Source of the DNA: Nitrospira sp.
GTDB lineage: Bacteria > Nitrospirota > Nitrospiria > Nitrospirales > Nitrospiraceae
Reading direction: 5' to 3'
Assembly (NCBI GenBank): GCA_024330965.1
Contig: JANDJL010000016.1
Location: 1 to 64,000 of the forward strand
DNA length: 64,000 bases
A program made the position numbers and the translations under genes. This document shows, in pieces, positions 4,529 through 39,240 of this stretch (the first letter of the stretch is position 1; the number at the start of each line of letters is the position of its first letter). The notes beneath the pieces are model-generated. The model ran no database searches, had not been told where the DNA came from, and saw only the letters and a list, made by a program, of their open reading frames with translations.

Positions 4529-4565
4529 CGCTCCTCCTCCACATTACCCTTTCGAACGAATCGGC

Positions 4566-7696: not shown

Positions 7697-7748
7697 TCCA
7701 TGTCTTTCCACGTCTTCCACCGCGTATCGACCGCACGACCATCATCCA

Positions 7749-8882: not shown

Positions 8883-8970
8883 CCGTCACTCGCAGGCCCG
8901 TCGCGATATGCTTCCCTGCTCTCCATGCGATTGACGAGTACAGCTCGCCTCTTCCGGCATTCAGGATTCA

Positions 8971-10365: not shown

Positions 10366-10549
10366 GAAAGTCCTCCCTCACTCAACAACCGTGCCACGTG
10401 CGCGGCGAGATGAGTCGCGCTGTCAACACGGACCATCTCAACAGGTTCCTAGCCGGCCGGACCTTCGAAACGAGAAGACGATCTCTTCACACCGGGAATC
10501 CTGCGACAGGAGCAATGCAGATCTGTTGCGGAACGCCACAGTCCTCGGT

Positions 10550-13927: not shown

Positions 13928-14056
13928 GGATTTCCTGTCTCCCTTTCACCACGTCACCATTTCAGTCAGTCCCCCATTTCACGCTCAGGGGTTGGAGCAT
14001 GAATAACATCCTGCCGAACGAGAGGTTCCACACTTTAAGCCAGGACGATGCAAGAT

Positions 14057-15112
14057 TTACGACGTGGCCGAACCGACGGCGTGATCCGGCGGATTGACCA
14101 ACGCTCCATCGGCACCGATGGCCGCCTCACGCAGCACCGATTCCCCGACGTTGACGCCGGACAGAATCTCCACCTGGCTGTCGAATCGCCTGCCCGTCTT
14201 GACCCACCGGAGGCCGGCAATTCCATCCGGACCGACGACGAAGATGCTCACAAGTTGACCGCGCTCTGCAAGAGCCGTGTCGGGCAGGAGGATGGTCTGG
14301 TGCGTTCCCCTTTCCAATTGGAATCGCCCGAACATGCCGCTTTTCAGCCCCGGCGTCGCCGGCAGGTCCACGTTCACGGTAAAGGTGTGGGTTTGAGGAT
14401 CACCAGCCGGAAGGATCTGCGCGACGGTCCCAGTCAACTCCTGCGCACCCAAGGCATCGATGACCACGGGGATCTTATCGCCCGGTGACAGGGATTTTAT
14501 GTCCCTCTCCGCGACGGTCGCCTCAAGCCGGAGCAGTCGCGGATTTTCCATCCGCAACAGCGGCTGCCCCGGCGACGCCAACTCGCCGGCCTCCACCAAT
14601 TTCTCGGTGATGACGCCGTCGAACGGTGCCTTCACGATCGTATAGCTCAACTGCGCTTCGATCGCCTTTCGGCCGGCTTCAGCCACCTTATACGCCCGGG
14701 TGGCGTTTTCCATCTCCTGTTTCGACACGGCATCCCGCTCGTAGAGCTGATTCATCCGGTCAAGGTGCGCGATTGCATTGTCCAGTTCGGCGGAGACACG
14801 AGCCAATTCCGCCTCCAGATCCCGGCTGTCAAGGTAGATGACAGGCTGGCCCTTGGAAACCACCATCCCCTCCCGTACCAACAGCTTCTTAATGGTGCTT
14901 TGAATCCGACTGGAGAGCGTGGCCTGATAGACGGCGGTGACCTGACCGGTCACCTCGATGCGGATGGGCACCGAGGTCTGGACGACTTTGATCACCTCGG
15001 CACGGATCGTCCTTCGGGCTTCGGAAGAATTCGTCACGGGGGTTGATTCTTCCTTCAACCCGCATCCGGCCAATGTCAAGACGACCAGGGCCGCGATGAC
15101 CGCTCGTTTCAT
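14057..15112 (-). CDS. RND efflux periplasmic adaptor, lipoprotein
   Basis: This 351-residue protein has a lipobox at LTLAGCGL (Cys near residue 16), so it should be anchored by lipid to the inner membrane. It contains the lipoyl halves (STIKKLLVREGMVVSKGQPV and APFDGVITEKLVEAGELA) flanking a short helical hairpin, then beta-barrel and membrane-proximal domains. It would assemble with the RND pump encoded immediately downstream. The ATG at 15112 is preceded by GAGGAGA; an earlier in-frame Met at 15142 adds only a basic stretch without a ribosome-binding site. Confidence 0.92.
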   Translation of the reverse strand: MKRAVIAALVVLTLAGCGLKEESTPVTNSSEARRTIRAEVIKVVQTSVPIRIEVTGQVTAVYQATLSSRIQSTIKKLLVREGMVVSKGQPVIYLDSRDLEAELARVSAELDNAIAHLDRMNQLYERDAVSKQEMENATRAYKVAEAGRKAIEAQLSYTIVKAPFDGVITEKLVEAGELASPGQPLLRMENPRLLRLEATVAERDIKSLSPGDKIPVVIDALGAQELTGTVAQILPAGDPQTHTFTVNVDLPATPGLKSGMFGRFQLERGTHQTILLPDTALAERGQLVSIFVVGPDGIAGLRWVKTGRRFDSQVEILSGVNVGESVLREAAIGADGALVNPPDHAVGSATS

Positions 15113-15311
15113 TCTGCGTCTCCTCGTGGTGTCACGCTCCACCTCGGGTTTTCAGCCCATCAGTTCTTTCCCCGCCGAACCAATGGGCTCTGCCATCACG
15201 CTGGATATCCGCCCCGTTTTTCATCAAGTTCAGAACCGCCACCGACCGGCCTGCCCGCTCCGGCTGGAAACCAAGAACCGGGGCTCTTTGCTGGTTGACA
15301 CGCCGTCGTGC

Positions 15312-17951: not shown

Positions 17952-18078
17952 TTGAACCTCACAATACTGACCTTCGCACGAAAGACATGAGAATCGTATG
18001 ATTGTGAGAAGACTGACGAGCACCGGCACTCAGCTCGCTCATCGCCTGCCGCAATTGACAACTGCAAGGAGCACAGCC

Positions 18079-18954
18079 ATGGTTCAGGGAGCCTTGTCCT
18101 TTTTTCTTTTGGTGGCGGTCGGTTGGCATGGGTGGGCTCATTCGAGGCTCGTTGCCTTTGAGGATTTCAGTCCGGCTGAGCAAATTGCTCGCTCTGCCGT
18201 CAGCTCTCCTCTGGAAGTCGTGCCCGAGGGATTTTTTTTGATGGGAACGGCCCATCACGGAGGAAAACCCTATGGCTTCGAAACACAGTATGACGATACC
18301 GAACAACCCCGGCGCCGGATTTGGCTTAATGCCTTTCTCATCGACCGCTACGAGGTCAGCCTTGGTGAATACCTACGATGGCTTCAGGCAGAACAGCGAC
18401 CTCTGCCCAAAGAACTGCGCGACCTGATCAATCATATGATCACGGTCCACGCCGTTCAGCCTGCTGCGCTCGCCCACTGGCCGGCACTGTATGTCACCTG
18501 GCAAGAAGCCTCGGCCTTTTGTCGAGCGCAGGGCAAGCGACTTCCAACAGAAGCCGAGTGGGAAAAGGCAGCACGTGGCGTCCATGGTCAACTCTTCCCG
18601 TGGGGATCTCAAGCCCCTTCGCCGATCCTGGCCAGGTTCGGCCAATATCATGTCCATGAAATTCCACTCGTCGAACCGGTCGAGAGTCGGAAAGAGGGTC
18701 GTAGTCCCTATGGATTGCACCATATGGCCGGCAATGCCGCCGAGTGGGTCGCCGATTGGTTTGGGACCGACTACTATGCAATCATGCCGACGACCAACCC
18801 GTCCGGCCCCTCCACTGGGCGGTACAAGAGCGTTCGTGGAGGATCGTGGAAAAGTTCTCCGCAGATGCTGCGAGCAGCCACAAGAGGAGGAGCCTTACCG
18901 GAGCAACGGGCCGCGACGATCGGATTTCGGTGTGCAAAGTCAGGGGGGTCGTGA
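18079..18954 (+). CDS. Exported FGE-sulfatase (SUMF1)-domain protein 1
   Basis: This 291-residue protein has an N-terminal signal (about 1-22) and then the formylglycine-generating-enzyme fold. Signatures include GFFLMGTAHHGG, KRLPTEAEWEKAARG, MAGNAAEWVADWFG, RGGSW and the C-terminal GFRCA. True FGEs use a Cys pair spaced C-x4-C near the end; here only the second Cys is present, so sulfatase activation is unlikely and a structural or binding role fits better. The ATG at 18079 has AAGGAG at seven bases. It is one of four such proteins within 10 kb and is the only one on the plus strand. Confidence 0.88.
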   Translation: MVQGALSFFLLVAVGWHGWAHSRLVAFEDFSPAEQIARSAVSSPLEVVPEGFFLMGTAHHGGKPYGFETQYDDTEQPRRRIWLNAFLIDRYEVSLGEYLRWLQAEQRPLPKELRDLINHMITVHAVQPAALAHWPALYVTWQEASAFCRAQGKRLPTEAEWEKAARGVHGQLFPWGSQAPSPILARFGQYHVHEIPLVEPVESRKEGRSPYGLHHMAGNAAEWVADWFGTDYYAIMPTTNPSGPSTGRYKSVRGGSWKSSPQMLRAATRGGALPEQRAATIGFRCAKSGGS

Positions 18955-20990: not shown

Positions 20991-21863
20991 CTATGGAGCA
21001 GTCTCCCTACCCACCGTGGCATCGGCAGCACAGCGGAATCCGGTTGATTCGTTTCTATTGGTTGGATCGCTCTCAACGCGGGTAAAGATGCGGACCGTCG
21101 GGGTCTCGCTCTGCCAACCAGCTCCACGTAAGACTTTCTTCGTCCCCCTCTCTGGACCCTTGGGGTTATGTGCAGGGCTATTTTCGTAGTATCGTGCACT
21201 GTACCAGTCATTGACCCATTCCCATACATTCCCCGCCATATCGTAGACCCCATAGGGGCTCTTTCCAGCTTCGTAACTGCCCACCGGCATCAATGTTTTT
21301 TCACCGATCCACCTCTGATTGTAGTTGAGATGTTTGTCCGTCGGCTCGACATTGCCCCACGGAAACCGCCGGTCAGTTGTTCCTTTTGCCGCTTTCTCCC
21401 ACTCTGCCTCGGTCGGCAAACGTTTGCCGGCCCACTGACAGTAGGCCGCGGCATCGTACCAATCCACATTCACGACGGGCCGATCCGCCAGCGATTCACT
21501 GATCTCCATCCCTTGCCAGAGACTGCGTGAGGGATTCGTGGGGTGGGAGGGGATACGGTGCCCTGTTGCTTTCACAAAATTGAGGTAGCGGGCGTTTGTG
21601 ACTTCAAATTGATCGATGAAATACGCGTCAAGGAAGACTTCATGCCTTGGGTATTCATCGCGTCCTCCGTCTCGATCCCCTGCCGGAACTCCCATGGGAA
21701 AGACACCGGCAGGAATCAAGACCATCGGCGCACCATCGTTGCCGACTACAGTAGTGACTTCCTTTGCCTGTGCAGACGACTCAGCGGCAAGGCTTTCAGA
21801 TCCCCCGGCCAGCAAGCCCCATACGATCAGGATCGCGCTGATCGGAGTCAGCGCTCTTGTCAT
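20991..21863 (-). CDS. Exported FGE-sulfatase (SUMF1)-domain protein 2
   Basis: About 290 residues with a signal peptide (MTRALTPISAILIVWGLLAG) and the FGE-type fold: PMVLIPAGVFPMG, AAYCQWAGKRLPTEAEWEKA, MAGNVWEWVNDWY and terminal GFRCAA. The residue five before the last Cys is Ser, so the FGE catalytic Cys pair is incomplete. The start at 21863 was chosen because the signal peptide begins there; in-frame Mets at 21893 and 21923 are possible and none has a strong ribosome-binding site. It follows the HEAT-repeat gene closely and is probably cotranscribed with it. Confidence 0.85.
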   Translation of the reverse strand: MTRALTPISAILIVWGLLAGGSESLAAESSAQAKEVTTVVGNDGAPMVLIPAGVFPMGVPAGDRDGGRDEYPRHEVFLDAYFIDQFEVTNARYLNFVKATGHRIPSHPTNPSRSLWQGMEISESLADRPVVNVDWYDAAAYCQWAGKRLPTEAEWEKAAKGTTDRRFPWGNVEPTDKHLNYNQRWIGEKTLMPVGSYEAGKSPYGVYDMAGNVWEWVNDWYSARYYENSPAHNPKGPERGTKKVLRGAGWQSETPTVRIFTRVESDPTNRNESTGFRCAADATVGRETAP

Positions 21864-21945
21864 GCGCTCTACCGCCTGATGATAGAAGAACATTGGTGTC
21901 ACGGTTGAGATTGCGCCCACCATCAGTGGAGGCACAGAACTTCCC

Positions 21946-23388
21946 TCACTTGGAAGCCGTCGATAACTCTCCTTGCCTGGCTTGGAGCGAAAGCACATAG
22001 AGCAGTTCTCCTCCCGCCGTTGCGCGAACGGCGTCATCCTCATCGTGGAGTCCCTGTTTAAGCAATGGGAGCGCTTCCATCCCCTCCAACTTGGCGACCG
22101 CCTTAAGAGCCGCCATTCGCACCCGCGAGATCGTATCAATGCATAGCGTTTCTAAGATCGGCCGCACATCTTTTCGATGCTTGGCAGAAGCACGGCCTAA
22201 AGCCCGAGCCAAAGCTGCGCGCGTGGCTGGATTGCGAGACGTTGAAAGGGTTGCAATTGGCTGAGCCAGTCCCTGGTACGATTCCCCCAGCTCCAACAAG
22301 CTCCCTATCACAAAAGATTGAACGGACGCATCATGATCATCAAGAGCCTTTTGTAACAGCGGCACGCTACTCGCTGCTGGAAACTGACCGAGACTCACTG
22401 CGGCGGCAACGCGGACGGGCGGAACGGGGTCGTGAAGCAGTCTTGCCAAAGCTTCCAAGGCCTCTGGCCGTTTGGTCTGTGCAAAGCCAGAGGCTGCTGC
22501 GCCACGGACCGATGGTTGGGTATGCCGACTTGCCTCGAGAAGAAACGGCAGCGCCAAGGCTCCTCGCCACTCCGTTAAGGAAGCAATCGCCGCCGCTGCT
22601 TCCTCCGGGTTCGAAGAAGCCGCGAATTGCTCTAATCGAGTACAGTTTTGAGTCCGGCCGAGGCGACAGAGCGCTTCAGTTGCTGCCACTCTCACCCGCG
22701 CCTCAGGATCTTCTAGGCTTGGTTCAACCAGTGCGATGACCGATCCATCGCCCGACTTTCCAAAGGCTTTGAGTACGATCGCCTTGACGAGAGCTGCTTC
22801 ATCATCGACGGCGTCACGAAAACGGGTGGACCGATAGCCCTCCTTGAATTTCCCCAACCCTTCCGCCGCTAGGGCCCGCACTAATCCTGATCGATCTTTC
22901 AAGCCATCTTCGAAGAAAGGAATCGCTCCGGGATTTCTCCATTCCTTTAGGGCCGTGTAGGCTGCTCCTCTCATCTGTTCGCGCATGTCATTGACCATGA
23001 CAGCAACAAACCCCAGGGCGATTTCTTGAAGTAGGGGGAGATCATCGTGCTGGAGCGCCGTGGTGAGACGGTCGTATTCGGTAAGGGCCTCCTTCGGATT
23101 GCCCTCTCTCAACAACGAGCGAATTTTTTGGCGATTGGCCGCAGAAGAACTGGTTCGATCGAGATCCCCTGCGCCGTGGTCCTTGGCGAGAATTGTCTGC
23201 CACTCTCTTGAAGACTGCTGCTCCTCTTTGCCCACAAGTAAGCCAGAGGCCGGAGCTTCCATTGGAACAGCCAGGAGGGTACCAAACAGAAAACCGCCCC
23301 ATGTTATCCCCGTAATCCCCCACAGACACAGTCTGGGACTCCTCCGCAACCTGGTTACCCCATCGGTCGCCCACTTGTCTTTCGCCAT
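21946..23388 (-). CDS. Exported HEAT-repeat protein
   Basis: This 480-residue protein has an N-terminal hydrophobic signal (about 20-45) and then about nine helical repeats of the HEAT type over residues 110-470. Repeats carry patterns such as DPEARVRVAATEALCRLG, DPVPPVRVAAAVSLGQF and DAVRATAGGELLYVL. Such repeats form curved scaffolds for protein binding; no catalytic site is seen. Its place between a cupredoxin-like gene and an FGE-domain gene suggests a scaffold or assembly factor for the exported complex. No clear ribosome-binding site precedes the ATG at 23388. Confidence 0.85.
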   Translation of the reverse strand: MAKDKWATDGVTRLRRSPRLCLWGITGITWGGFLFGTLLAVPMEAPASGLLVGKEEQQSSREWQTILAKDHGAGDLDRTSSSAANRQKIRSLLREGNPKEALTEYDRLTTALQHDDLPLLQEIALGFVAVMVNDMREQMRGAAYTALKEWRNPGAIPFFEDGLKDRSGLVRALAAEGLGKFKEGYRSTRFRDAVDDEAALVKAIVLKAFGKSGDGSVIALVEPSLEDPEARVRVAATEALCRLGRTQNCTRLEQFAASSNPEEAAAAIASLTEWRGALALPFLLEASRHTQPSVRGAAASGFAQTKRPEALEALARLLHDPVPPVRVAAAVSLGQFPAASSVPLLQKALDDHDASVQSFVIGSLLELGESYQGLAQPIATLSTSRNPATRAALARALGRASAKHRKDVRPILETLCIDTISRVRMAALKAVAKLEGMEALPLLKQGLHDEDDAVRATAGGELLYVLSLQARQGELSTASK

Positions 23389-23572: not shown

Positions 23573-24520
23573 TCACCGTTGGAGCTCAACCAGGGGTTGA
23601 ATATCAACGGGATAGCCCAAGGCCTCGAGGCCAAAACGTGGGTTCTCCACCACCCGGTATGCCGTCCAATTCCCTTTTGGCGCTTGAATGACGAAGTTCC
23701 TAGTCAGATGATCATCTGGCTTGATCACGACCGTCACGGATTGTCCCGGTCCTGTCCTGGGATGCCACACTACCACGTGATAGGTACCGGGCGGAATGTC
23801 TTCGATAGTATAGTGCCCATGTTCATCAGTCAGTGCATAGTAGGGATTGTCAACCGCCATCGCCCAGCTTTCCATGTAGGCATGGAATCCACATTGCATG
23901 TAGAACATGCGCCGACCGGCGCTCAATCTGATCGGCCCTATGAGCGATTTCCCCGGAGCATGGTTGTGAGTCGCGCGAAGGTCACCACGTCGGTGCTGGT
24001 GATTCATAATCAAGGGGCTGTTAAAGATCACGCGGGCTCCCGTCACAAGGGAAGTCTCATAACCTTGGATATCGTGCATGACCGGATCCATGTTCACCAC
24101 TTCAACTGCATGGCCGTTCCGCACGACTGTCATGAAGGGGGAAAAGGTGCAGTCTCGGGCTTCGATGAGGGGAACGGAGACCTCGAAGGGCTTGCCAGCC
24201 TCCACCTCTTCGAACAAGACGATAGCATTTTTGAGTCCCCCCTCCGCATCGACGGCAAAATCATACAACAACCGCCACCCTTTCCCATTTGAGATACGGC
24301 CGCAATACTCCGGATCAGGAAACGTGATCAGATTGAACCCCCTCGGCTCAGGAACCTCGCCAACCAATGTGACCTTACCGGTTAACGTTCCACCGTGTTG
24401 GACATCCTTCACCGTATAGGCATGCGCCGCATCGGCCCAAACCAAACACGCTGTCATGGCTAGGATCACACAGAGGGGCCTGTAGCCGCCTCCCACGTTT
24501 GCGCGGTAGCCCCTGACCAT
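23573..24520 (-). CDS. Exported cupredoxin/carboxypeptidase-regulatory-like protein 1 (methylamine-utilization-like)
   Basis: This 315-residue protein has a signal peptide (about 1-34, ending DAAHA). The N-terminal half carries EARDCTFSPFMTVVRNG and VVNMDPVMHDIQGYE, the middle MQCGFHAYMESWAMA, and the C-terminal part a regulatory-like beta-sandwich (TIEDIPPGTYHVVVWHP). The Met/His/Cys motifs resemble plastocyanin-type copper sites (a His and a Cys-His-Met cluster), so copper binding is plausible but unproven. GAGGAGA precedes the ATG. A close paralogue lies at 27687, next to the multicopper oxidase gene, which suggests that both are electron or metal partners of the oxidase. Confidence 0.85.
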   Translation of the reverse strand: MVRGYRANVGGGYRPLCVILAMTACLVWADAAHAYTVKDVQHGGTLTGKVTLVGEVPEPRGFNLITFPDPEYCGRISNGKGWRLLYDFAVDAEGGLKNAIVLFEEVEAGKPFEVSVPLIEARDCTFSPFMTVVRNGHAVEVVNMDPVMHDIQGYETSLVTGARVIFNSPLIMNHQHRRGDLRATHNHAPGKSLIGPIRLSAGRRMFYMQCGFHAYMESWAMAVDNPYYALTDEHGHYTIEDIPPGTYHVVVWHPRTGPGQSVTVVIKPDDHLTRNFVIQAPKGNWTAYRVVENPRFGLEALGYPVDIQPLVELQR

Positions 24521-24718: not shown

Positions 24719-25399
24719 CTATTTTCCTAATACTTTTTTGTTGGCCATGCTCTGTACATCCATTTCCAGCCTCACAGGGCTGTTGGGATTCCGGAGATCG
24801 ACTCGGTGAGGCCATTGGTCCACCATCAGTTTCGTGATGGGAATCGCTGCGATCAGTACCGCCCCTTCCCACGGTTGGGAATAGAGCGCGCATCGGAATG
24901 CCTTTCCCCTCCGTTCGGCCATGAGTTCAGGAGCCGCGGTCTGTTCGATAAAGCCGACCAGCATCCCACTCCCATCGGCAAGTTTGTGAATTTCATACGA
25001 GTCGGACGTAGATGCCGTCTTCTCCAGGACGAGATCCGGACTCTGAGTGATCAAGGCCAGCGCCAAACGTCGGGAGGCGATAAAGCCATAGCTCCCGGCC
25101 TGTGCTTCTGAGAAACGGACCATGGGAAGCTGTAGCTCTTCCACTCGGTTCTTATCACGTAGGAGTCGTCTCAGATCCGATTCCGTACGAGTGGCATCCA
25201 TGAGCACAATTGGTGGAACCGTTTTGTGGACGCTCAGGACTTCTTTTTTCTCGCTCCTTTCACTCGTCGCCGCCTCGAGAGCGAATGGCCATAGGCTCAC
25301 CCCAACGAGTGCCCAGACGACAAGGGGCCAGACCTTCATGGTCCGCACGGACCATTGCACCCAATGGAGCGGGGGTATGACGATACGGGTCCTGACCAT
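24719..25399 (-). CDS. Exported hypothetical protein
   Basis: About 226 residues: a basic N-terminus, one hydrophobic signal segment (VWPLVVWALVGVSLWPFALEA) and a soluble domain with no family I recognise. The rest is mixed alpha/beta with segments such as LLRDKNRVEELQLPMVRF and SYGFIASRRLALALI. The start at 25399 has GGAAGAG at ten bases; ATG at 25339 would start directly at the signal. It lies between a cupredoxin-like and an FGE-domain gene on the same strand and is probably part of the same envelope module. Confidence 0.65.
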   Translation of the reverse strand: MVRTRIVIPPLHWVQWSVRTMKVWPLVVWALVGVSLWPFALEAATSERSEKKEVLSVHKTVPPIVLMDATRTESDLRRLLRDKNRVEELQLPMVRFSEAQAGSYGFIASRRLALALITQSPDLVLEKTASTSDSYEIHKLADGSGMLVGFIEQTAAPELMAERRGKAFRCALYSQPWEGAVLIAAIPITKLMVDQWPHRVDLRNPNSPVRLEMDVQSMANKKVLGK

Positions 25400-25550
25400 A
25401 GGGAGCTTTCTCTTCCTGAAGGTTACCGCGCCATGACCGAACAAGGCGTCACTCATGTTTTCCCCATTTTCGCCTGCTGGTTCGTCGATGTGATGATAGG
25501 AAGTCTCCCTCCATGGACACCCTATAGACACGGCATTCCCCTCCAGTCGG

Positions 25551-26552
25551 TCATTCTGTCGGGCTTGTCATTGTAGGTGAGGATGCTACTTCGGACGCAC
25601 GAGGCTGTCCTCCGGACTGTTGCCCGTCATCAACAGACCTGGCACAGCGGAACCCCAGCCAATTGTATTTACTGTTCGGGTCTGCCCCATTTCTCATGGC
25701 GACTCGCATGGTAGTGGTGCTATCGATCCATCCTCCTCCCCGGAAGGCTTTCGTGCTGCCTGATTCTGGACCACGAGGGTTTCGGTCTGGGGCTTTCCGA
25801 TAATAATCAGGGTCATACCAATCCGCCACCCATTCTGCCACATTTCCAATCATCTGATGAAGGCCATAGGGACTCACTGAATTGGGATATTTGTCAACGG
25901 AGATAATGGGAGGATAAAGCAATAATCGCTCTGGGCGATCGCGCACTGGACCAGACAGGCCGGTTCGTCCAAAATTCGCTCGGGAAAGACCGGCTGGCTC
26001 ATCGCCCCATGGATACAGGCGGCCATCGACTCCTCTGGCAGCCTTTTCCCATTCAGCTTCCGTCGGAAGGCGCATACCCCTCCATTTGCAATAGGCGTCG
26101 GCGTCGTACCAGGAGACATGCATCACCGGGTGATGAGCCATCGACTCCTGAAAATTCCCCCCGTCATATCGCCAGTCAATTTGAGGTGAGCGGTTGGTCT
26201 CAAGAACAAACTTGAGGTATTCCAGTGCCGTGACTTCATATTTGCTGATCTCGAACGCATCAAGATAGACTTGGCGCTGGGGGAGTTCGCTCCGATAAGC
26301 GAGGCGATCTTTTTTCTTATCGCTGCCCATAAGAAATTCACCTGCCGGCACGAGCACCATTTCCGTCTTCGGCTTCCATGTCTCGACTCGGTGCGCAGCA
26401 AGCTTTTTGCCTTCTTGAGTCCATTCGATCACGATGTCCTGGGTATCCAATCCCCAAACATATCCTCCGCCAACAACCATGGCAACACAGCCCAGCAGCA
26501 CACTAAACGCCCCCAATACCCTTCTGCCATTTATTTGCATCTCTTTATGCAT
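25551..26552 (-). CDS. Exported FGE-sulfatase (SUMF1)-domain protein 3
   Basis: This 333-residue protein has a signal peptide or anchor (about 10-34), then FGE-type signatures MVLVPAGEFLMGSDKKKD, DADAYCKWRGMRLPTEAEWE, MIGNVAEWVADWYDPDYY, FRGGGW and terminal WLGFRCAR. The position five before the last Cys is Trp, not Cys. AGGAGA precedes the ATG at ten bases. It is more similar to copy 4 (26656) than to copies 1 and 2: both share MVLVPAG, MGSD.RKD and WADWFDP-type segments, suggesting a recent duplication. Confidence 0.88.
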   Translation of the reverse strand: MHKEMQINGRRVLGAFSVLLGCVAMVVGGGYVWGLDTQDIVIEWTQEGKKLAAHRVETWKPKTEMVLVPAGEFLMGSDKKKDRLAYRSELPQRQVYLDAFEISKYEVTALEYLKFVLETNRSPQIDWRYDGGNFQESMAHHPVMHVSWYDADAYCKWRGMRLPTEAEWEKAARGVDGRLYPWGDEPAGLSRANFGRTGLSGPVRDRPERLLLYPPIISVDKYPNSVSPYGLHQMIGNVAEWVADWYDPDYYRKAPDRNPRGPESGSTKAFRGGGWIDSTTTMRVAMRNGADPNSKYNWLGFRCARSVDDGQQSGGQPRASEVASSPTMTSPTE

Positions 26553-26655: not shown

Positions 26656-27564
26656 CTATTTTTCCTTTGCCTGTCCGTCTTCACTCCTTTGAATGGTTGA
26701 GGGGGATGCCTGAGCGTCTCGGGCACAGCGGAAGCCGATAAGGTAACTACGATGATCTGGCTGGGCTGCATTTCGTCCGGCAGAGCGGGCAACCTCTGGA
26801 TCTTCATTCCATGATCCGCCGCGGAATACTTTCAGTTGTCCTGTTGCTGGTCCTTTGGGATTCACCACCTCATCTTTTTGATAATACCGTGGATCAAACC
26901 AGTCTGCGACCCACTCGCTGACATTCCCTGCCATCTGATAGACTCCATAGGGACTGACCCCTTTTTCATACCGTGTTACATTCGCAAGGGGAGGATACTT
27001 GATCCCTCGTTTTGAGCCAGGATGGGCAATGTTGCTTTTGAGCCAGCCTGCTGGCTCATCACCCCAGGGAAAGATCGCTCCCCCCTCTCCCCTGGCTGCC
27101 TTCTCCCATTCTGCTTCAGTGGGGAGACGTTTTTGTGCCCACTGGCAATAAGCCTCTGCCTCATACCAGGTCACTCCAATGACGGGATGGAGTGCCATCT
27201 TCTCTGAAAATGGATTCTCGCGCCAATAGGGAGGCCATGGGGCTCCAGTCGCCCACACGAACAGCAAATAATCAATGTTGGACACTTCGTATCGATCGAT
27301 CCAGAAAGCATCAAGAAACACCTGTCTCTGTGGAAGTTCCTGAGGCCCTGCTGCTCGGTCTTTCCGCGGATCGCTTCCCATGAGAAACGGCCCTGCCGGC
27401 ACAAGCACCATGCCCTCCGGTCGCTTTAAGATGGCCAGTCGTTCAGCCTCATCCCACGGAGTCCAGAGCGGAGGCTGAGACCGTTGTTGTTCATGATCAG
27501 CCAGGGCAGGAGCAGCTGCGCCCCCCACGGCCATGGCTAGGGTCAGCATGACCGCCCGATACAT
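26656..27564 (-). CDS. Exported FGE-sulfatase (SUMF1)-domain protein 4
   Basis: About 302 residues with a signal peptide (MYRAVMLTLAMAVGGAAAPA then LA) and the FGE fold: MVLVPAGPFLMGSDPRKD, EAYCQWAQKRLPTEAEWE, MAGNVSEWVADWFDPRYY, FRGGSW and LIGFRCARD. The position five before the last Cys is Leu, so it is not a standard FGE. The ATG at 27564 was chosen for the signal peptide and a GGTGGAGG run upstream; the frame extends to 27672 with a charged, unlikely leader. It lies between copy 3 and the second cupredoxin-like gene. Confidence 0.87.
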   Translation of the reverse strand: MYRAVMLTLAMAVGGAAAPALADHEQQRSQPPLWTPWDEAERLAILKRPEGMVLVPAGPFLMGSDPRKDRAAGPQELPQRQVFLDAFWIDRYEVSNIDYLLFVWATGAPWPPYWRENPFSEKMALHPVIGVTWYEAEAYCQWAQKRLPTEAEWEKAARGEGGAIFPWGDEPAGWLKSNIAHPGSKRGIKYPPLANVTRYEKGVSPYGVYQMAGNVSEWVADWFDPRYYQKDEVVNPKGPATGQLKVFRGGSWNEDPEVARSAGRNAAQPDHRSYLIGFRCARDAQASPSTIQRSEDGQAKEK

Positions 27565-27686
27565 CCTCCACCTTTTATGACTGATTATTGGCTTTCTTCG
27601 TGCTGATTCGAATGTCTGGGTAAGCAACTGAGCAAAGAAGCGCAGAAAAGACCGCCGCACAATGGCACACACGTATTCGTCACGTC

Positions 27687-28646
27687 TTAGGGATGTTCTT
27701 GTCTTTCAATCACTGGCTCAATCTCTCGCTTGACATCTTCAGTAACCTTGTATCGAACATAGGTATGGTCTAACACTTCGTTCGCGTAGAGCCTCCCCGT
27801 TGGGGCCTCAATAGAGACATGGGTATGAACCGTCTCTCCTGCCCGCACGACGACCGTTTGTTCGAATCTCTGCCTTATATAGGGATGCCATGCCACGAGC
27901 CTGTACGTGCCGGGGGGGACATCGGAAATAGTGAACCGACCCGCTTCATCCGTTTTTGCATAGTACGGATTGGTGATAGCTAGGGCCCAACTTTCCATGT
28001 ACGCATGAAACCCACATTGCATCACAAAGACATTGCGCCCCTTGGTCAGGTTGATCTGTTGCTTCATTGGCTGACCAGCCATGTGTTTATGATAGAGCCC
28101 AGCATCGGTTCTGTCTTTGAAATTCCTTGGGTGCTGAGGGTTCATAGGCAATGGAACATTGAAAAGCACTCGCGCTCCCATTTGAGAAGTCTCATATGCT
28201 TGGATGTCATGCATGACAGGGTCCATGTTGACCACCGTCACCGTCTGATTGTTTCGCACTACTGTGATAAACGGGACAAAGAGACAATCGCGCGCCTCAA
28301 TGGCCACTCCATCACTCTCACCGAAGGCTTTTCCTTTTTCGATATCTTCCAGATACATCACCACATCTTGAAACTCACCATGGGGTCCCACCTCGAAAGG
28401 CTGAAGAATGCGCCACCCTTGGCCATCCGAAATTCTCCCACAATAGAATTGGTCTGGCAATGTCGTCAGATTATATCCTTTGGGTTTTGGAACGGATCCC
28501 TCTAGGGTGACCGTTCCTGTAATCGTTCCTCCATCCGAGACATAGATTTCCTGGTATCCGAATGCTTCTGACGTTATGGCAAGTATGCAGGGAAAGAGGA
28601 TCACCCATATTTTTCGTTTTGTACGAATTTGCATTTGATGTTCCAT
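27687..28646 (-). CDS. Exported cupredoxin/carboxypeptidase-regulatory-like protein 2 (methylamine-utilization-like)
   Basis: This 319-residue protein has a signal peptide (about 1-30) and shares its whole plan with the protein at 23573: EARDCLFVPFITVVRNN, VVNMDPVMHDIQAYE, MQCGFHAYMESWALA and ISDVPPGTYRLVAWHP. The conserved Met, His and Cys residues suggest a metal or redox site. It is the first gene after the multicopper oxidase on this strand, separated by a strong hairpin at 28833-28868. An N-terminal ATG (28646) and a second Met four residues in are possible starts; neither has a clear ribosome-binding site. Confidence 0.87.
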   Translation of the reverse strand: MEHQMQIRTKRKIWVILFPCILAITSEAFGYQEIYVSDGGTITGTVTLEGSVPKPKGYNLTTLPDQFYCGRISDGQGWRILQPFEVGPHGEFQDVVMYLEDIEKGKAFGESDGVAIEARDCLFVPFITVVRNNQTVTVVNMDPVMHDIQAYETSQMGARVLFNVPLPMNPQHPRNFKDRTDAGLYHKHMAGQPMKQQINLTKGRNVFVMQCGFHAYMESWALAITNPYYAKTDEAGRFTISDVPPGTYRLVAWHPYIRQRFEQTVVVRAGETVHTHVSIEAPTGRLYANEVLDHTYVRYKVTEDVKREIEPVIERQEHP

Positions 28647-28902: not shown

Positions 28903-31900
28903 CTACTTCAGAGCCGTTGGTACCACATGCGGTATTTCCTCTTCCGCTGCCCGCTTAACCCCAGGAGCGGTCACTCCAAGCGGGAGGATCCTTGGATCAC
29001 CAGCTGGAAGAACTCGCATGTACCCCCACTGCCCAGACTGAGTATAAGGTAGCCGCTGATTGGACCATACAAAATTCGCTGCTTGTCGGTATGGCCCACC
29101 TGCTCCTCCCTTTATGAACACATCAAGCGTTTCCGATCCAGCATACTCCACTACGCTAATCATATCAGCTCCCGGCATGTAGGGTTCAATCGGCCACTCG
29201 TGACCTTCAATCCCAAACATACCATTCTGCTCACTATTTGCCCCTATGACGTGGATCCGAACAGGATCACCCGCATGGGCCTCAATTAATGGCGTCACGG
29301 GATCTTCCGGTTTATCAACCACGCAAGGCTGGAATATCCTCCCAAGCGTACAGCCTTGATCTTCTCGGAACTTGTACGGCTCAGCACGATAGTTGACTGC
29401 TGTCAACCCAGCCACATTTTGCACATAGGGCATAAAGGATGTCCCGATGATGTTATCCTCATCTTGGAAGAAAAGAGCAAAATCTCGGTAATTCTGCTTC
29501 CCGGCGTTCTCCGGCAAGCTGGTATCAACGATCACGTCCGCTCTCCAAGAATTTTTCAACGAAATATCTTCACCCGTGACAGGATCACGATATTGCGAGC
29601 CAGGTGGCCCAACAATGATCGCCCCGTAGAGTCCATTCCTTGGATTCACGACAATATTACCACCATCCCAAACAAGAGACGTTGTCTCCTTGTTCAACGG
29701 ATGAGCATAATAAGTATAAGTACGGCTCTCTCCTGGACCAATTGTCTGATCACCAGGATTGTTCCCAACATTCAACCCCATACTGTCTCTTGGATCAAAC
29801 GCTAATCCAGGCGCAAAGAACGACGCCCGGCTTGCCTTCATTTTGTTCTTGAGGTGAACTTTGATACAGTCACCGACATTCACACGAAGCGTCAGCGGAT
29901 GCGGCATGATATCGGAGGCCACCTTTGTCACTTCGTCTTCAAGTGCAAAGATTTTACCCTCCGGCATTGTCATCTCAATTTTTCGCTCAAAGTCCACTTC
30001 TATGGTGTCCGGGGCCTTCGGATGCAGCCTCATCGGCCGATCTATGGCAACCACGTTGAATGACTTCACCGGTGCATCAGCCGGACAGACAGAACTCGGT
30101 GTTGGTGGAATCCCAAGCGGATTCGTCCCTTTCGGGAGCGGCATCAGATCCGGCACGAGCTTGTCGAGGACACGGACAATACCCCACCCACCCTCGGCAA
30201 AATGGGAACTCCGGCCATTGAAATGGATATAGTCACCCGGCATTCTCTGAAATCCGCCCGCTGTCGTTACAAGATCATATCTCTCAGCAATTCCCACGTG
30301 GATTGAATATTTTCTATTCGCATCGGACGCATAACGTTCGGTTAAAAACGTATGCCCCGCGATAGTCCATACGTGGGACTCATTCATCAGTTGATGCAAC
30401 AACCGGAACACGATGGTATCCCCCACATAGGCACGAAGCAAAGGCGTATCGGGATCACCATGAATCTTGCTGTTAAAGAGCTGCGAGGTATCGGGATTGT
30501 TTGCCAGGCGTTGCGCAAATGGCTCCGCTCTGAAGTTAAATCCGCTCCCCGTTGTATGTGTACCTCCATTAATGTATGGGTTTGGCGCTTTCAGAATTTT
30601 TTCTGGCATTTGGAATGACACTGTCTTTCCCGCCTCCAGAGCTACTTCAATCGGTTGACCCGGAGGATTTCCCGCTTCAATCACATTGACAGTGTGTGGA
30701 ACCGTATCGTGAATCGAAACCATGAGTTCGCGGAAGCTTCCGCTCACCCCGGCCCCGATAGGCTCGTTCGTATGGATGTCCGCAATGGGACCGCTCCAGA
30801 CAAGCTTACCGTTCTTGGGATCGTGATACGTTGATCCCACCGGCTCCACAATCGTGACACCAAACCCTCCGTGGGGCCAGGTGGTTGCCCCAAACGCATG
30901 GTCATGCCAGAACACCGTTCCCACATCAGCATCAACCCACCAGCGGTACCGCACAAACTCCGGAGACACAAGATCATTTGGTGGATGGTTATACTTCAAC
31001 GGCTTATAGAAGGTGATCCGATCGCCCTTGATTTCTTTGATACGAGCAACCTCTGAGCAACTCTTATCACGTGGAAGTGAGGCAGTAGGATCGTTCCCCT
31101 TCTCCAAACAGTCCATCCCGACCATTACTTCTGTATTCTCATGGAACTTCGTCGCACCGGGCGCCATTTGAATCTTGATGGAAGTAGCACCCGCCTTGGC
31201 CCCTCCGATGATTTTGGCGACCATAGGAGCCGGCAACCCATGCTTGGTTTGCTTACCCCACATGGTGAAGGGCCTCATCGACATCTCATACTCAAATCCA
31301 GAGATGACGCCATCTGAGTTACCAGTATCAAATTGGAAGAAATGCGGATGAATATTGACTTTTGATGACTGGAAGTTCGTGTAATCGTCATCGTCCCATT
31401 CACTGGTCAATACCAAGTCTACACAGTCGTAGACGTTGGCCCTGATGACAGCGGGATACTTCAAGTCATCGTTCGCACGTATCAACCGCTCTTCCTCATG
31501 CAGCACATAGATTAACCCATCCTTGTCGACAATAGGCGGTTCATTGCCCTGCTGTTTTGCCAATGTGATGGGCAGTCGAATGAAGTGAATGTTGTAAAAT
31601 TTTTGATTGGCATTCTCAGGGCACAGACTCCAGCGACCATTTTCACCGGGCTTGGCCGGCTCTGATGTCCGCTCGCCGTTTTCATCCTGATGAATCGGCT
31701 CTAACCATGGTGCACCGCTATGGTTGGCAGAAAACGGCACACGCTTGCCAAAGTGCGGCTTGAACAACGGCCATGCGATCTTCCCCGTGACCGGATCAAA
31801 CAGGATGGGAGGCCGAGTCGAGTCATCCCACTTTTCAGCCCACTGATACTTGGGGTTCGGAGCTGTGCTCTCTCGCTCGCCAAAGGCAACATTCCCTCTC

Positions 31901-33846
31901 CATTTCCAATCCCAGACTGTCGCATCATAGGCAAGAATCTGCTCTCTCTCATCATCTGTATGGCCAGGCCGACCTTGAGCCGGCAAGAACATTTCTACCC
32001 AATCCTTGATGTTCACAACTACCGGATCAGCTTTCCAATTGGTTTTTTGATTCCGATCGACGATCTTGAATTTCTTGCCAAACCAATCAACCGTTGTTCC
32101 AATCAGCTTGTCGGATGTCACTCCAAGCTTCATCCGACCCTTTCGATCAGGGAGTTCCCGCAGATCAGGCATCGTATCAGTATGGCCTTCCCCAACCTGC
32201 AGTGTATTGTAAAACCGACCATAGCCCCACATCCCTGCCACATAATGATGGGCGACGTGGCAGTGATAGAGGAACTCGCCGGCTAAATGCTGGCACCCAC
32301 CACCTCCACACTCCGGCTCCAGATCCAGCGCCTCCGATGGGCCAATAACTTCGACATCCACACGGTCCGATTTGGTTCGAACCACTGGATATTTGACCGG
32401 ACCATCCTGACCTGCCGCCCAGAGGTTGTTCGGCTCTGTACCGGGACTCCGCTGCCACCGAATCGACCCACTATGTGGATGATGCGAGTGAAACACTTCA
32501 GACCCTCCATGCACCACCCGCCACTTGACAGGGTCGCCTAAATACCCACGGGCGATCGTAGTTGGCGTGTCACCGAACGTGTAGGCACTGTAGCCCATTG
32601 ACTCGTCTTCGAAGCCGAAATACTCATGCTGCAGATGCATTTGATCAATGCCAAATGGCTCGCTCCGGTAGTTGAGGGCCCTCCCTCCCGGGCGGTACGC
32701 ATCAGTCAACGGATCCCGCTGAGGGAGGAAGTCTCCCTTTTTATTCAAGGGCCGAAACGCTTCATCTCCGATCTCATGATAGAAAAGGACATACTCGCGA
32801 AAGTCCGGCCCCGTACCATTCTGGATATTGACCTGCCATCCGCTCTTCACCTCTCTCTCCGGCCCGGTTCCCAGCGAATCCAGATAACGAGAACCTCTCG
32901 GCTCCACCACAAAAGCACCAAAGAGGCCGAGCACTGTCAATTCCCTGTCATGGCTATAAGAATGAAACTGCCGCACCCCCTCTTGCATGGACGGGTGGAT
33001 ATACCATTCAAAGTCCTGAGACTTGCCAGGAGGAACAATGGAGTCCGGATTCGTCGTGGTCGCCGGCTTTCCAGTGGCACTCACAACCATGCTTGATGCC
33101 TGGATAAAGAGACTGCCATCCTCACCTTCCATCTGATTACGAAGAGTAATTTTGACACAGTCTCCCTGATTGGCTCGGAGCACAAGCGGTTGAATGACAT
33201 CACCCTGCAACCCCGTGCTGACAGCACCAGGATCAAAGCCTTCCTTTTCTCGCGCCTCCCTGTTCCGCTGCTCCTCAGCGCGAGCCTTCTCAATATCTTC
33301 GGTGTTGATGTACATGTACCCTGGATAGTAATCCAGCCACCGGTTCAACGTGATTTCGATGTTGATCATCGAAATATCATACTTTCGCACCGGAGCATTG
33401 GCAGGACACCGCCCACCCGTGCTCAGAACCGGCTCGCCCTTCCCCCTATCACTCATCAGCAGAAAGCTACTTCCATCCTGCCCCATATACTGATGCATCA
33501 TCGACATGTTATTGAACATGCCTGAAGTTGGGTGGGCGACAGCATCCTGCCCCGCCTGCTGCGCGAGCTTCTCCATCAATCGATGATGCTGTTGTTCCGT
33601 TCTTTGTGCGTGCTCGGCCCGCCCTTCGATGGCATTTTCAACAATGGTCTGCCCTTTCAATTGCTGAGTCCACGCCGGCATGGATACCGGGGTAGCCAGA
33701 CTCGTATGCTGATGCTCCGACTGTTCCGCACTCGACCATCCAGGCCCTCCCACCACCAAACCGCCACTTAACACAAGAAACCCAAGAGCCCGCGAGGCCC
33801 TTACCAACCAGCCAGCTTCACCGAGTGCATAGCGCAAAACTCTCAT
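28903..33846 (-). CDS. Giant multi-domain multicopper oxidase, MofA-like
   Basis: This 1647-residue exported protein has a signal peptide (about 1-42) and several cupredoxin domains. Copper motifs occur in a permuted order. A type-3/type-2 set HSHHPH (453-458) and the type-1 set HCHVAHHYVAGMWG (528-541, with Cys529, His534 and Met539) come first; HPH (833-835) and WHDH (980-983) come later. The C-terminal third has degenerate copies such as HFNGRSSHFAEGGWG. Size and motif order resemble MofA of Leptothrix, a putative Mn(II) oxidase, recalled from general knowledge. The ATG has GGAGGGAGG nine bases upstream. Substrate could be Mn(II), Cu(I) or Fe(II). It should act in the periplasm or on the outer surface. 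Confidence 0.88.
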   Translation of the reverse strand: MRVLRYALGEAGWLVRASRALGFLVLSGGLVVGGPGWSSAEQSEHQHTSLATPVSMPAWTQQLKGQTIVENAIEGRAEHAQRTEQQHHRLMEKLAQQAGQDAVAHPTSGMFNNMSMMHQYMGQDGSSFLLMSDRGKGEPVLSTGGRCPANAPVRKYDISMINIEITLNRWLDYYPGYMYINTEDIEKARAEEQRNREAREKEGFDPGAVSTGLQGDVIQPLVLRANQGDCVKITLRNQMEGEDGSLFIQASSMVVSATGKPATTTNPDSIVPPGKSQDFEWYIHPSMQEGVRQFHSYSHDRELTVLGLFGAFVVEPRGSRYLDSLGTGPEREVKSGWQVNIQNGTGPDFREYVLFYHEIGDEAFRPLNKKGDFLPQRDPLTDAYRPGGRALNYRSEPFGIDQMHLQHEYFGFEDESMGYSAYTFGDTPTTIARGYLGDPVKWRVVHGGSEVFHSHHPHSGSIRWQRSPGTEPNNLWAAGQDGPVKYPVVRTKSDRVDVEVIGPSEALDLEPECGGGGCQHLAGEFLYHCHVAHHYVAGMWGYGRFYNTLQVGEGHTDTMPDLRELPDRKGRMKLGVTSDKLIGTTVDWFGKKFKIVDRNQKTNWKADPVVVNIKDWVEMFLPAQGRPGHTDDEREQILAYDATVWDWKWRGNVAFGERESTAPNPKYQWAEKWDDSTRPPILFDPVTGKIAWPLFKPHFGKRVPFSANHSGAPWLEPIHQDENGERTSEPAKPGENGRWSLCPENANQKFYNIHFIRLPITLAKQQGNEPPIVDKDGLIYVLHEEERLIRANDDLKYPAVIRANVYDCVDLVLTSEWDDDDYTNFQSSKVNIHPHFFQFDTGNSDGVISGFEYEMSMRPFTMWGKQTKHGLPAPMVAKIIGGAKAGATSIKIQMAPGATKFHENTEVMVGMDCLEKGNDPTASLPRDKSCSEVARIKEIKGDRITFYKPLKYNHPPNDLVSPEFVRYRWWVDADVGTVFWHDHAFGATTWPHGGFGVTIVEPVGSTYHDPKNGKLVWSGPIADIHTNEPIGAGVSGSFRELMVSIHDTVPHTVNVIEAGNPPGQPIEVALEAGKTVSFQMPEKILKAPNPYINGGTHTTGSGFNFRAEPFAQRLANNPDTSQLFNSKIHGDPDTPLLRAYVGDTIVFRLLHQLMNESHVWTIAGHTFLTERYASDANRKYSIHVGIAERYDLVTTAGGFQRMPGDYIHFNGRSSHFAEGGWGIVRVLDKLVPDLMPLPKGTNPLGIPPTPSSVCPADAPVKSFNVVAIDRPMRLHPKAPDTIEVDFERKIEMTMPEGKIFALEDEVTKVASDIMPHPLTLRVNVGDCIKVHLKNKMKASRASFFAPGLAFDPRDSMGLNVGNNPGDQTIGPGESRTYTYYAHPLNKETTSLVWDGGNIVVNPRNGLYGAIIVGPPGSQYRDPVTGEDISLKNSWRADVIVDTSLPENAGKQNYRDFALFFQDEDNIIGTSFMPYVQNVAGLTAVNYRAEPYKFREDQGCTLGRIFQPCVVDKPEDPVTPLIEAHAGDPVRIHVIGANSEQNGMFGIEGHEWPIEPYMPGADMISVVEYAGSETLDVFIKGGAGGPYRQAANFVWSNQRLPYTQSGQWGYMRVLPAGDPRILPLGVTAPGVKRAAEEEIPHVVPTALK

Positions 33847-34849
33847 AAATGTGGCCTCCCTCCACTTTGCCTGTCATTTAGGCCAGACAACGTGTCGCTT
33901 GTGTGAACATATCTTTACATTTCGCCATAGCCGACACAGCAACCCCCTCTACGCGTGAGCGGCAGTCTCAGACTTGGCAACTCTGACTACCCGCAGTTGA
34001 ACTCCCAACTGGTTTCAACAGTGTTCCACACTTTCAACGACCCCGTTTCTTTAGTTTCCTTCTTCTTTTTTCCCGCCCCTCTCGTTTGCCACTCTTCTCG
34101 ATCTTTTTTGTTTATTGTTTATTCTTCTCACATGGAATTAGGCACATTGTTCATTTTTGCTTAGTGAGCTCAAAAAAATCAAGTTCAAAAATCACGCCCC
34201 GGTCCCTACTCACCCTCCCCTCCTCAGCACCGCTTACTTGGGGGGTTATTGCTTCTGATCTGATTTGTTTGACGAGCATCCCCCGGCCTCCGAAGCTCCG
34301 GCCTCTTGATCGAAATTAAGCACCTCAATACTCGGAAGGAGCTGGTGAAGGGTCCTTCTTACGAAGGAAAGGGTCATTCGGAGGCCGGTCCAAAATCACC
34401 CAAACCTTCACCAGCGACCACACATTGCAGCAACGGCCGTGCCCAACAGATTATTCCTTGGGACAATAGATGCAATCCGCTGAAAACACAGCGAACTGGC
34501 GACAGGGGCTGCTCGTTTAACTCAAAAATAGGAAACTCATTTCGCCAGTCCCAGGAATCCACAGGGTTGGACAGAAGTCGCCCCGCACCTTCATAGCCTT
34601 GAAATTTCCACTTGTTGGACTGTCCATCCTACTAGACACTCCAAACGCTCATAATGAGGCAATTCGTCGCATCCTTCTCCTCTTTTCTCCTCTGAAGATA
34701 GATGGCAAAGGGAGAGATGAAAATGCTGACGGCCCGGCAAAACCAGGGGAGATTCCAATGAAGAGGGCACTCCCCTTTGTCCGGGACTCTCGCTGGGGAT
34801 GCCAACTGTCGGAGACAAGAGGAGGACACCGGGCCGACAGACCCGGCAC
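33847..34849. other. 1-kb intergenic region upstream of the multicopper oxidase
   Basis: It holds the oxidase ribosome-binding site (about 33852-33862) and a pyrimidine-rich stretch (34045-34140; purine-rich in the oxidase leader). A short hairpin TCCTTC-TTAC-GAAGGA lies at 34353-34368. No frame on either strand looks like a real protein. Regulatory sites for the oxidase are likely here but none can be named. Confidence 0.5.
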
Positions 34850-37851: not shown

Positions 37852-39240
37852 TTATTCAATGCCGTAAGCGCGGAGCTTGTTGTAGAGGCTCGCTCGGCTG
37901 ATCTTCAGCAACTTAGCCGCCTTGACACGGTTGCCATTGGTTTTCTTCAATGCCTCGAGGATTCGAGCACGTTCGGTTTGGGCGATAACCCCTCGCGTGG
38001 CCGAACGGAGGTCGTCTCCTTCATCCATCGCGCTCATGGCCAGGAGATCATCGCACCCGATCGTAGGCCCTGTAGTCGTCACGACGGCCCGTTCAATATA
38101 GTGTTGCAGCTCCCTCACATTTCCGGGCCATGCGGCTTTGCTCAACGCCCGTCTCGCCTGATCCGACAACGTGCGAACCGGCTGCTGATGCCGCCGGCAC
38201 GATCGAGCAATGAAGTGTTCGGCCAACAAAGGAATATCCTCTCGTCGATCGCGGAGCGGAGGCACATAGAGCGGCAAGACTGCCAGACGATAATACAGGT
38301 CCTGCCGAAACGCCTTTTCCTTCACGAGATCCGCGAGATCTTTATTCGTCGCGGAAATGACCCGCACGTCAACTTTGATCGGCTTGGTCCCGCCGACGGG
38401 CCTGATCTCGCCCTCTTGCAGCACACGCAGCAACTTGGCTTGAAACACCGGCGTCGTGTCGGCGATTTCATCAAGAAAAATCGTCCCCGAGTCCGCTTCC
38501 TCGAACAACCCGCGTTTATTCGCCACCGCTCCGGTAAAGGAACCTTTCACATGGCCGAACAACTCGCTTTCCAATAACGTTTCCGGCAACGCGCCGCAAT
38601 CAACGACGATAAACGGCTTGTCTTTCCTCCGGCTCAAGGCGTGAATCGTTCTCGCAAGCAGTTCCTTGCCCGTTCCGCTTTCGCCCTGAATCAGGACCGT
38701 CGCCGAACTTTCCGCCACCAGGCTCACCATGTCGAAAAGCCGCTGCATAACGGGGCTTCGGCCGATCAATTCACCCAGCGAGTCACGCACCGCCCCGCGC
38801 TCCTGCTGGGGGGAAACATGATCCGTCGCCGTCCGCTTGCCGTTGAATAACACCAGCATCGAACCGACGTCACCCCCACCGGTGACAAGCGGAAATGCTT
38901 GGTGCATCCCGCAGACCGTTCCATCGCCCCCGATAGGACAAGAGACCGACCGCACTCCTGGTGCCTCAAACACCTTGATTGCCGGACAAGCCTCGCACGG
39001 ATCGGCACGATGGGCGAAGGCCTCGTAGCACTTGGCCCGCTGGCTCTCCGGCTTCGTGGTCGCCGCAGACGACCACGCCGGCTCGTTCGCGTACACCACA
39101 TTAAAATGTCGGTCCATGACTGCCACGCGATCTGTTAAGCCACCGGCCAGTTGAGCAATCGCTTCCACCCTTGCACGCAAGATAGGATCACTAAATGGCA
39201 ACGCCCCCTCTTCATTCTGAAATTCCACGCTGTTTGGCAT
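37852..39240 (-). CDS. Sigma-54-dependent transcriptional activator with Cys-rich PAS domain
   Basis: This 462-residue regulator has an N-terminal PAS-like sensor (about 24-135) with clustered Cys at 71, 82, 85, 101 and 110, then an AAA+ domain (Walker A GESGTGKE at 186-193; sigma-54 contact GSFTGA instead of GAFTGA) and a Fis-type helix-turn-helix (NRVKAAKLLKISRASLYNKL). It has no receiver domain, so the signal is sensed directly, possibly redox or metal through the cysteines. GAGAG lies six bases before the ATG. It is the nearest regulator to the multicopper oxidase module. Confidence 0.9.
   Translation of the reverse strand: MPNSVEFQNEEGALPFSDPILRARVEAIAQLAGGLTDRVAVMDRHFNVVYANEPAWSSAATTKPESQRAKCYEAFAHRADPCEACPAIKVFEAPGVRSVSCPIGGDGTVCGMHQAFPLVTGGGDVGSMLVLFNGKRTATDHVSPQQERGAVRDSLGELIGRSPVMQRLFDMVSLVAESSATVLIQGESGTGKELLARTIHALSRRKDKPFIVVDCGALPETLLESELFGHVKGSFTGAVANKRGLFEEADSGTIFLDEIADTTPVFQAKLLRVLQEGEIRPVGGTKPIKVDVRVISATNKDLADLVKEKAFRQDLYYRLAVLPLYVPPLRDRREDIPLLAEHFIARSCRRHQQPVRTLSDQARRALSKAAWPGNVRELQHYIERAVVTTTGPTIGCDDLLAMSAMDEGDDLRSATRGVIAQTERARILEALKKTNGNRVKAAKLLKISRASLYNKLRAYGIE

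Follow-up and report, generated by a model that had tools for sequence, protein, structure and literature searches.

A six-domain multicopper oxidase of MnxG-type architecture, core to the class Nitrospiria, with predicted blue-copper neighbours

Multicopper oxidases take up single electrons at a type-1 copper and pass them over an HCH bridge to a trinuclear site that reduces O2 to water. One member of this group, MnxG of Bacillus sp. PL-12 (PDB 9bxa, Mnx complex), has six cupredoxin domains. Its type-1 site lies in D2, its trinuclear ligands are shared between D2 and D3, and its copper motifs follow one another as C-D-A-B. A D2/D3 site has also been described for the six-domain oxidases of Leptothrix and Geobacter and, together with a type-1 site in D2 only, for all of the bacterial six-domain oxidases analysed in the same study (PMC3600357). 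MofA (Leptothrix) and OmpB (Geobacter) belong to the length class of the oxidase described here, and genes of the mofB, mofC and SCO1 kinds have been described as neighbours there (PMC5566968). Ceruloplasmin and hephaestin are likewise six-domain rings built from two-domain repeats, but they have a trinuclear site between D1 and D6 and three type-1 sites (PMC3600357). A putative Mn-oxidase-like multicopper oxidase has been reported from N. defluvii and Nitrospina gracilis (PMC3578206); it is probably of the same broad family as our oxidase, although the N. defluvii locus is not given there and three paralogues could be meant.

The oxidase and its copper ligands

The gene studied here lies in a window (the whole stretch of DNA that was analysed) of 64,000 nucleotides from Nitrospira sp. 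It is an open reading frame on the minus strand that begins with ATG and encodes 1647 aa, with a hydrophobic, signal-like stretch at the N-terminus. Its features are as follows.

28903..33846, minus strand: six-domain multicopper oxidase, 1647 aa (28903-33846; orthologues 75-94% identical across Nitrospira)
32167..33435, minus strand: repeat 1, residues 138-560 (D1-D2; D2 with motifs C and D); hhalign to repeat 2 99.6%, to repeat 3 99.9%; aligns to MnxG D1-D2
30127..31650, minus strand: repeat 2, residues 733-1240 (D3-D4; D3 with motifs A and B), from hhalign
28906..30114, minus strand: repeat 3, residues 1245-1647 (D5-D6, without copper motifs), from hhalign
32473..32490, minus strand: motif C, HSHHPH, residues 453-458, kept in 112/112 homologues
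32230..32265, minus strand: motif D, HCHVAHHYVAGM, residues 528-539 (type-1 Cys529 and Met539), kept in 112/112 homologues
31342..31350, minus strand: motif A, HPH, residues 833-835, from the alignment of 112 homologues
30898..30906, minus strand: motif B, HDH, residues 981-983, from the alignment of 112 homologues

As read from the sequence, the ligands H453/H456/H458, H528-C529-H530-H534-M539, H833/H835 and H981/H983 fit a complete type-1 and trinuclear site (residues 528-541 are HCHVAHHYVAGMWG, and WHDH occupies 980-983). All 12 ligand positions are invariant across the 112 aligned homologues, the most distant of which are ~25% identical, and every one of these homologues has the motifs in the order C-D-A. 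The pattern of motif D, HCHxxxHxxxxM, appeared in 0/5000 shuffles of the oxidase sequence. An earlier note on this DNA had reported the order C-D-A-B, and the motifs are found exactly where it had placed them; its statement that the last third of the protein has no type-1 Cys also holds, as D5-D6 contains Cys only at 1254, 1327, 1499 and 1508, none of them within a type-1 motif. The same note had called the motifs permuted, which is true relative to laccases but not relative to six-domain bacterial oxidases, for which the D2/D3 layout is the published norm. The motif order and the absence of copper sites from the C-terminal third are therefore real features that are already known for the class, because the layout of MnxG is identical and the survey of bacterial six-domain enzymes says as much (PMC3600357). 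Within D3, between motifs A and B (residues 878-945), there are two further cysteines, Cys913 and Cys930, which are both present in only ~44/112 homologues.

The oxidase consists of three copies of one two-domain cupredoxin unit (hhalign among the repeats, 99.6-99.9%), with a type-1 site in D2 only and trinuclear ligands in D2 and D3, as in other prokaryotic six-domain oxidases. Compared with the D1/D6 site of ceruloplasmin, its site is shifted two domains round the ring. In a profile search the best solved relative was MnxG 9bxa (E 5.6e-84). An AlphaFold model of residues 138-1240 built from 31 sequences had a mean pLDDT of 54.7, with D1 and D3 usable and D2 (mostly <35) and D4 poor, yet even with this poor model 9bxa was still the top fold match in Foldseek (E 4e-27); ceruloplasmin and hephaestin were matched as well. 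We infer from homology to MnxG that the motif pairs of D2 and D3 meet in the oxidase. The two proteins nevertheless differ: identity is low, in the Nitrospira oxidase D2 and D3 are separated by an extra ~170 aa, D3 carries an insertion, and the gene is flanked by predicted cupredoxins, whereas partners like mnxE and mnxF were not recognised.

Distribution, blue-copper neighbours and a proposed role

The oxidase family is core to the class Nitrospiria, a distribution that is new here: it was found in 185/186 genomes of at least 90% completeness and in 44/45 genera. In a sample of the phylum, 120/296 genomes matched the family, and the 6 matches outside the class were all weak. The closest loci are from Nitrospira (up to 94% identity). 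Paralogues are usual, with three in N. defluvii and four in N. moscoviensis, and there is a further clade at 52-57% identity; the genome of the window has one family member only. In GTDB, Nitrospiria includes an order with Mn-oxidising lithotrophs, and the class also contains the main nitrite oxidisers and all known comammox bacteria. The host itself is probably a comammox Nitrospira, since its genome carries an AMO-family gene (G000:C39:280-987; PF02461, 331 bits) and an NxrA-like reading frame. Recoding was considered for one oxidase copy (L040:10001-14875) and rejected, as its frame is broken at several places by frameshifts and in-frame stops that are probably assembly errors.

Two genes downstream of the oxidase are predicted to encode blue-copper proteins.

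27687..28646, minus strand: P0002, predicted exported blue-copper (type-1) protein with a carboxypeptidase-regulatory-like domain (ligand motif, AlphaFold, Foldseek)
23573..24520, minus strand: P0003, second predicted blue-copper protein, 49-50% identical to P0002 (sequence comparison)

Pfam finds only the C-terminal regulatory-like domain of P0002, and annotation therefore misses the copper domain. The motif N-x-D-x3-H ... C-x2-H-x2-M is kept in 118-121 of 121 relatives, and the AlphaFold model (pLDDT 90.6) matched plastocyanin, amicyanin, auracyanin and a Nitrosopumilus cupredoxin in Foldseek with probabilities of 0.99-1.00. P0002 is thus predicted to be a blue-copper protein, with a cupredoxin fold and His-Cys-His-Met type-1 ligands. 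Among loci with enough flank, a blue-copper gene lies no more than 1.5 kb downstream of the oxidase in 27/34 orthologous and 35/39 paralogous cases, and the pairing recurs in other Nitrospiria families (12/13 loci), where the oxidases are 56-59% identical. Some paralogues have no adjoining cupredoxin (e.g. L080/L151, L153 and L155); L151 (N. moscoviensis 4265415-4270142) is situated ~7 kb from an nxrA-like copy. The usual presence of a blue-copper gene 3' of the oxidase is new here, though the link between the two kinds of protein is not wholly so, because a multicopper oxidase and cupredoxin-like proteins had been noted together in the nxr cluster of Nitrospina (PMC3578206). The net charges calculated for the C-D motif loop of the oxidase and for both proteins did not suggest docking: the two partners are acidic alike.

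Upstream of the gene there are two features that may bear on its regulation.

34430..34443, minus strand: GGCACGGCCGTTGC, candidate promoter element for sigma-54, ~590 bp upstream of where the oxidase gene starts (conservation across orthologues)
37852..39240, minus strand: sigma-54-dependent activator (PF00158, 237 bits), recurrent upstream of orthologues

The pattern GGCA[CT]N5TTGC occurs no more than 600 bp upstream of 38/41 orthologues, against 0.22 expected from shuffles, and upstream of 1/45 paralogues of ~64-72% identity and 5/11 members of the 50-60% clade. A scan of the window alone was not significant, and the significance lies in the conservation. RpoN is present, and the conserved candidate element, which belongs to one subgroup, the orthologues, is new here. 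Sigma-70 promoter and terminator scans gave results at chance level.

A possible role for this protein, placed first among those considered and one to which we would give about an even chance, is that of an exported oxidase through which single electrons reach O2, the adjoining cupredoxins being its likely redox partners. If so, the oxidase would be exported and loaded with copper, and the type-1 copper of D2 would accept single electrons and hand them over the HCH bridge to a trinuclear cluster at the D2/D3 interface, assembled as in MnxG, where O2 would be reduced to water. The remaining domains, four in number, would be structural. The downstream blue-copper proteins may act as electron donor, or as a carrier from the same substrate, and in the orthologue group the oxidase would be induced via sigma-54. 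The substrate might be a metal (Mn, Cu or Fe) or the cupredoxin. Adjacency is no proof that electrons pass between the oxidase and P0002, and the oxidase could have a metal ion as its direct substrate and the cupredoxin a different function. What makes the locus interesting is the oxidase's core distribution and its pairing with a cupredoxin: a near-universal oxidase with a predicted blue-copper partner, and in one subgroup a sigma-54 element, points to a redox function in the periplasm that is core to the class, and the pairing makes the function of the oxidase, including any manganese oxidation by Nitrospira, a two-protein question.

Kinship with MnxG and other possible roles

Three other roles, of similar weight to one another, were considered beside that of a cupredoxin-partnered oxidase. 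The earlier note had likened the protein, by its length and motif order, to MofA of Leptothrix, a presumed Mn(II) oxidase. As an Mn(II) oxidase like MnxG or MofA, the protein would serve detoxification by forming Mn(III)/Mn(IV), or would supply Mn(III) as a protection against superoxide, as proposed for Nitrospina and Nitrospira. The closest solved relative is MnxG, a Mn(III)-based superoxide defence has been proposed for an MnxG-like oxidase conserved in N. defluvii (PMC3578206), and in sand filters Nitrospira abundance follows the removal of Mn (PMC12070406). However, the oxidase scores only 117 bits against the MnxG equivalog NF041487, of the Pseudomonas putida kind, whose curated cut-off is 3100. 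The architecture is common to both and the homology detectable, but the oxidase falls outside the equivalog. In the tree, the Nitrospiria oxidases split from the MnxG-like group with 100% support, although long branches make the deep joins unsure. A Streptomyces plasmid protein is related to the oxidase over its full length at 32% identity. An MnxG-like protein of Priestia (L115) matches 9bxa over its full length and has ligands and motif order as in the oxidase. None of the scanned genes flanking the oxidase was of the mofB (peptidyl-prolyl isomerase), mofC (cytochrome c) or SCO1 type. The oxidase is best explained as having the architecture of MnxG and belonging to a separate clade, core to Nitrospiria; the kinship with large prokaryotic Mn-oxidase-type enzymes thus stands at the level of architecture, and does not extend to membership of MnxG.

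The host genome contains a second, separate relative of MnxG, a protein of 2249 aa (G000:C48:96637-103386, the same as L120:1138-7887; also L136) that scores 2129 bits to NF041487 and so is nearer to P. putida-kind MnxG than the oxidase is, yet also below 3100. Downstream of its gene lie two SCO1/SenC genes and a gene that weakly matches cytochrome c. Because it is a much closer relative of MnxG and lies beside SCO1 and cytochrome-c-like genes, an MnxG assignment and a manganese role would come more naturally to this protein, which is the better Mn-oxidase candidate; it may also be a protein of this second type that has been reported as MnxG from Nitrospira of sand filters. Strong MnxG matches (E <1e-40) are patchy in the class, occurring in 16/118 Nitrospiria genomes, whereas the oxidase family is universal. 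These comparisons separate the oxidase family from the MnxG homologue carried by some Nitrospira, and they leave an Mn(II) role for the window oxidase possible, though rather unlikely and not specifically supported. Just upstream of the second MnxG-like gene are Cas6 and Cas1-like genes (L135:5365-7427).

It is doubtful, to a similar degree, that the protein is a cuprous or ferrous oxidase with a protective role in the periplasm, directed against Cu(I) or Fe(II), in the manner of CueO, CopA or ceruloplasmin. Ammonia oxidation depends on copper, and distant plasmid relatives (L114, L115, L117 and L119) adjoin CopC in Streptomyces and Priestia, a heavy-metal P-type ATPase in Hymenobacter and a CusA/CzcA pump in Microvirga. 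The six-domain enzymes Fox1 and ceruloplasmin are, moreover, ferroxidases (PMC3600357). Against this, no copper-resistance gene was found in the conserved Nitrospira neighbourhood of the oxidase, direct reading of its sequence revealed no CueO-like Met-rich insert, and control by sigma-54 would be unusual for copper resistance. The score against TIGR01480, the CopA/PcoA family of copper-resistance oxidases, was 9.9 bits where the cut-off is 478.95.

A respiratory side branch would be a special case of the cupredoxin-partnered oxidase, in which nitrite or ammonia oxidation reduces cupredoxins and the oxidase re-oxidises them, either for the disposal of excess electrons or for the scavenging of O2. 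The predicted cupredoxin partner, the N. moscoviensis paralogue close to an nxrA-like copy and the occurrence of the family in nitrifiers throughout are all consistent with such a branch, but the family is equally universal in other Nitrospiria families, Manganitrophaceae have no nitrification genes (PMC9040806), and the copy in the window lies away from nxr; we regard this narrower role as improbable. Far less probable still is that oxidase and cupredoxins form an energy-conserving, metal-oxidising couple, in which a high-potential donor, Mn(II) or another, would give its electrons through the cupredoxin to the respiratory chain and not only to O2, a long shot that was considered because the two multicopper oxidases of Manganitrophaceae, if they served Mn lithotrophy, would require a periplasmic electron carrier (PMC9040806) and a candidate carrier is encoded beside the oxidase, and that, if true, would amount to an auxiliary lithotrophy for Nitrospiria at large.

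Other genes around the oxidase

The genes downstream of the oxidase on the same strand encode, in order, a blue-copper protein, two SUMF1-domain proteins, a protein of no known family, the second blue-copper protein and a HEAT-repeat protein, and this order recurs in many orthologous loci.

26656..27672, minus strand: SUMF1/FGE-domain protein (PF03781, 196 bits), conserved neighbour of orthologues
25551..26552, minus strand: SUMF1/FGE-domain protein (PF03781, 212 bits), conserved neighbour
24719..25531, minus strand: protein without a Pfam family, often linked to the oxidase, conserved neighbour
21946..23388, minus strand: HEAT-repeat protein (PF13646), recurrent in the cluster

In all, four SUMF1/FGE-domain genes surround the oxidase (17998-18954, 20991-22139, 25551-26552 and 26656-27672) and are conserved in relatives. 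Copper-dependent FGE catalysis by them is unlikely, the two that were examined closely carrying only the last of the two copper-site Cys. No Rfam RNA or tRNA was found in the window. An open reading frame at 35360-36106 matches the HalD halogenase/2OG-Fe(II) oxygenase families and lies near the oxidase in some relatives, and positions 3356-15142 on the minus strand hold a set of efflux genes comprising an ABC-2 exporter, HlyD, OEP and an AcrB-type pump.
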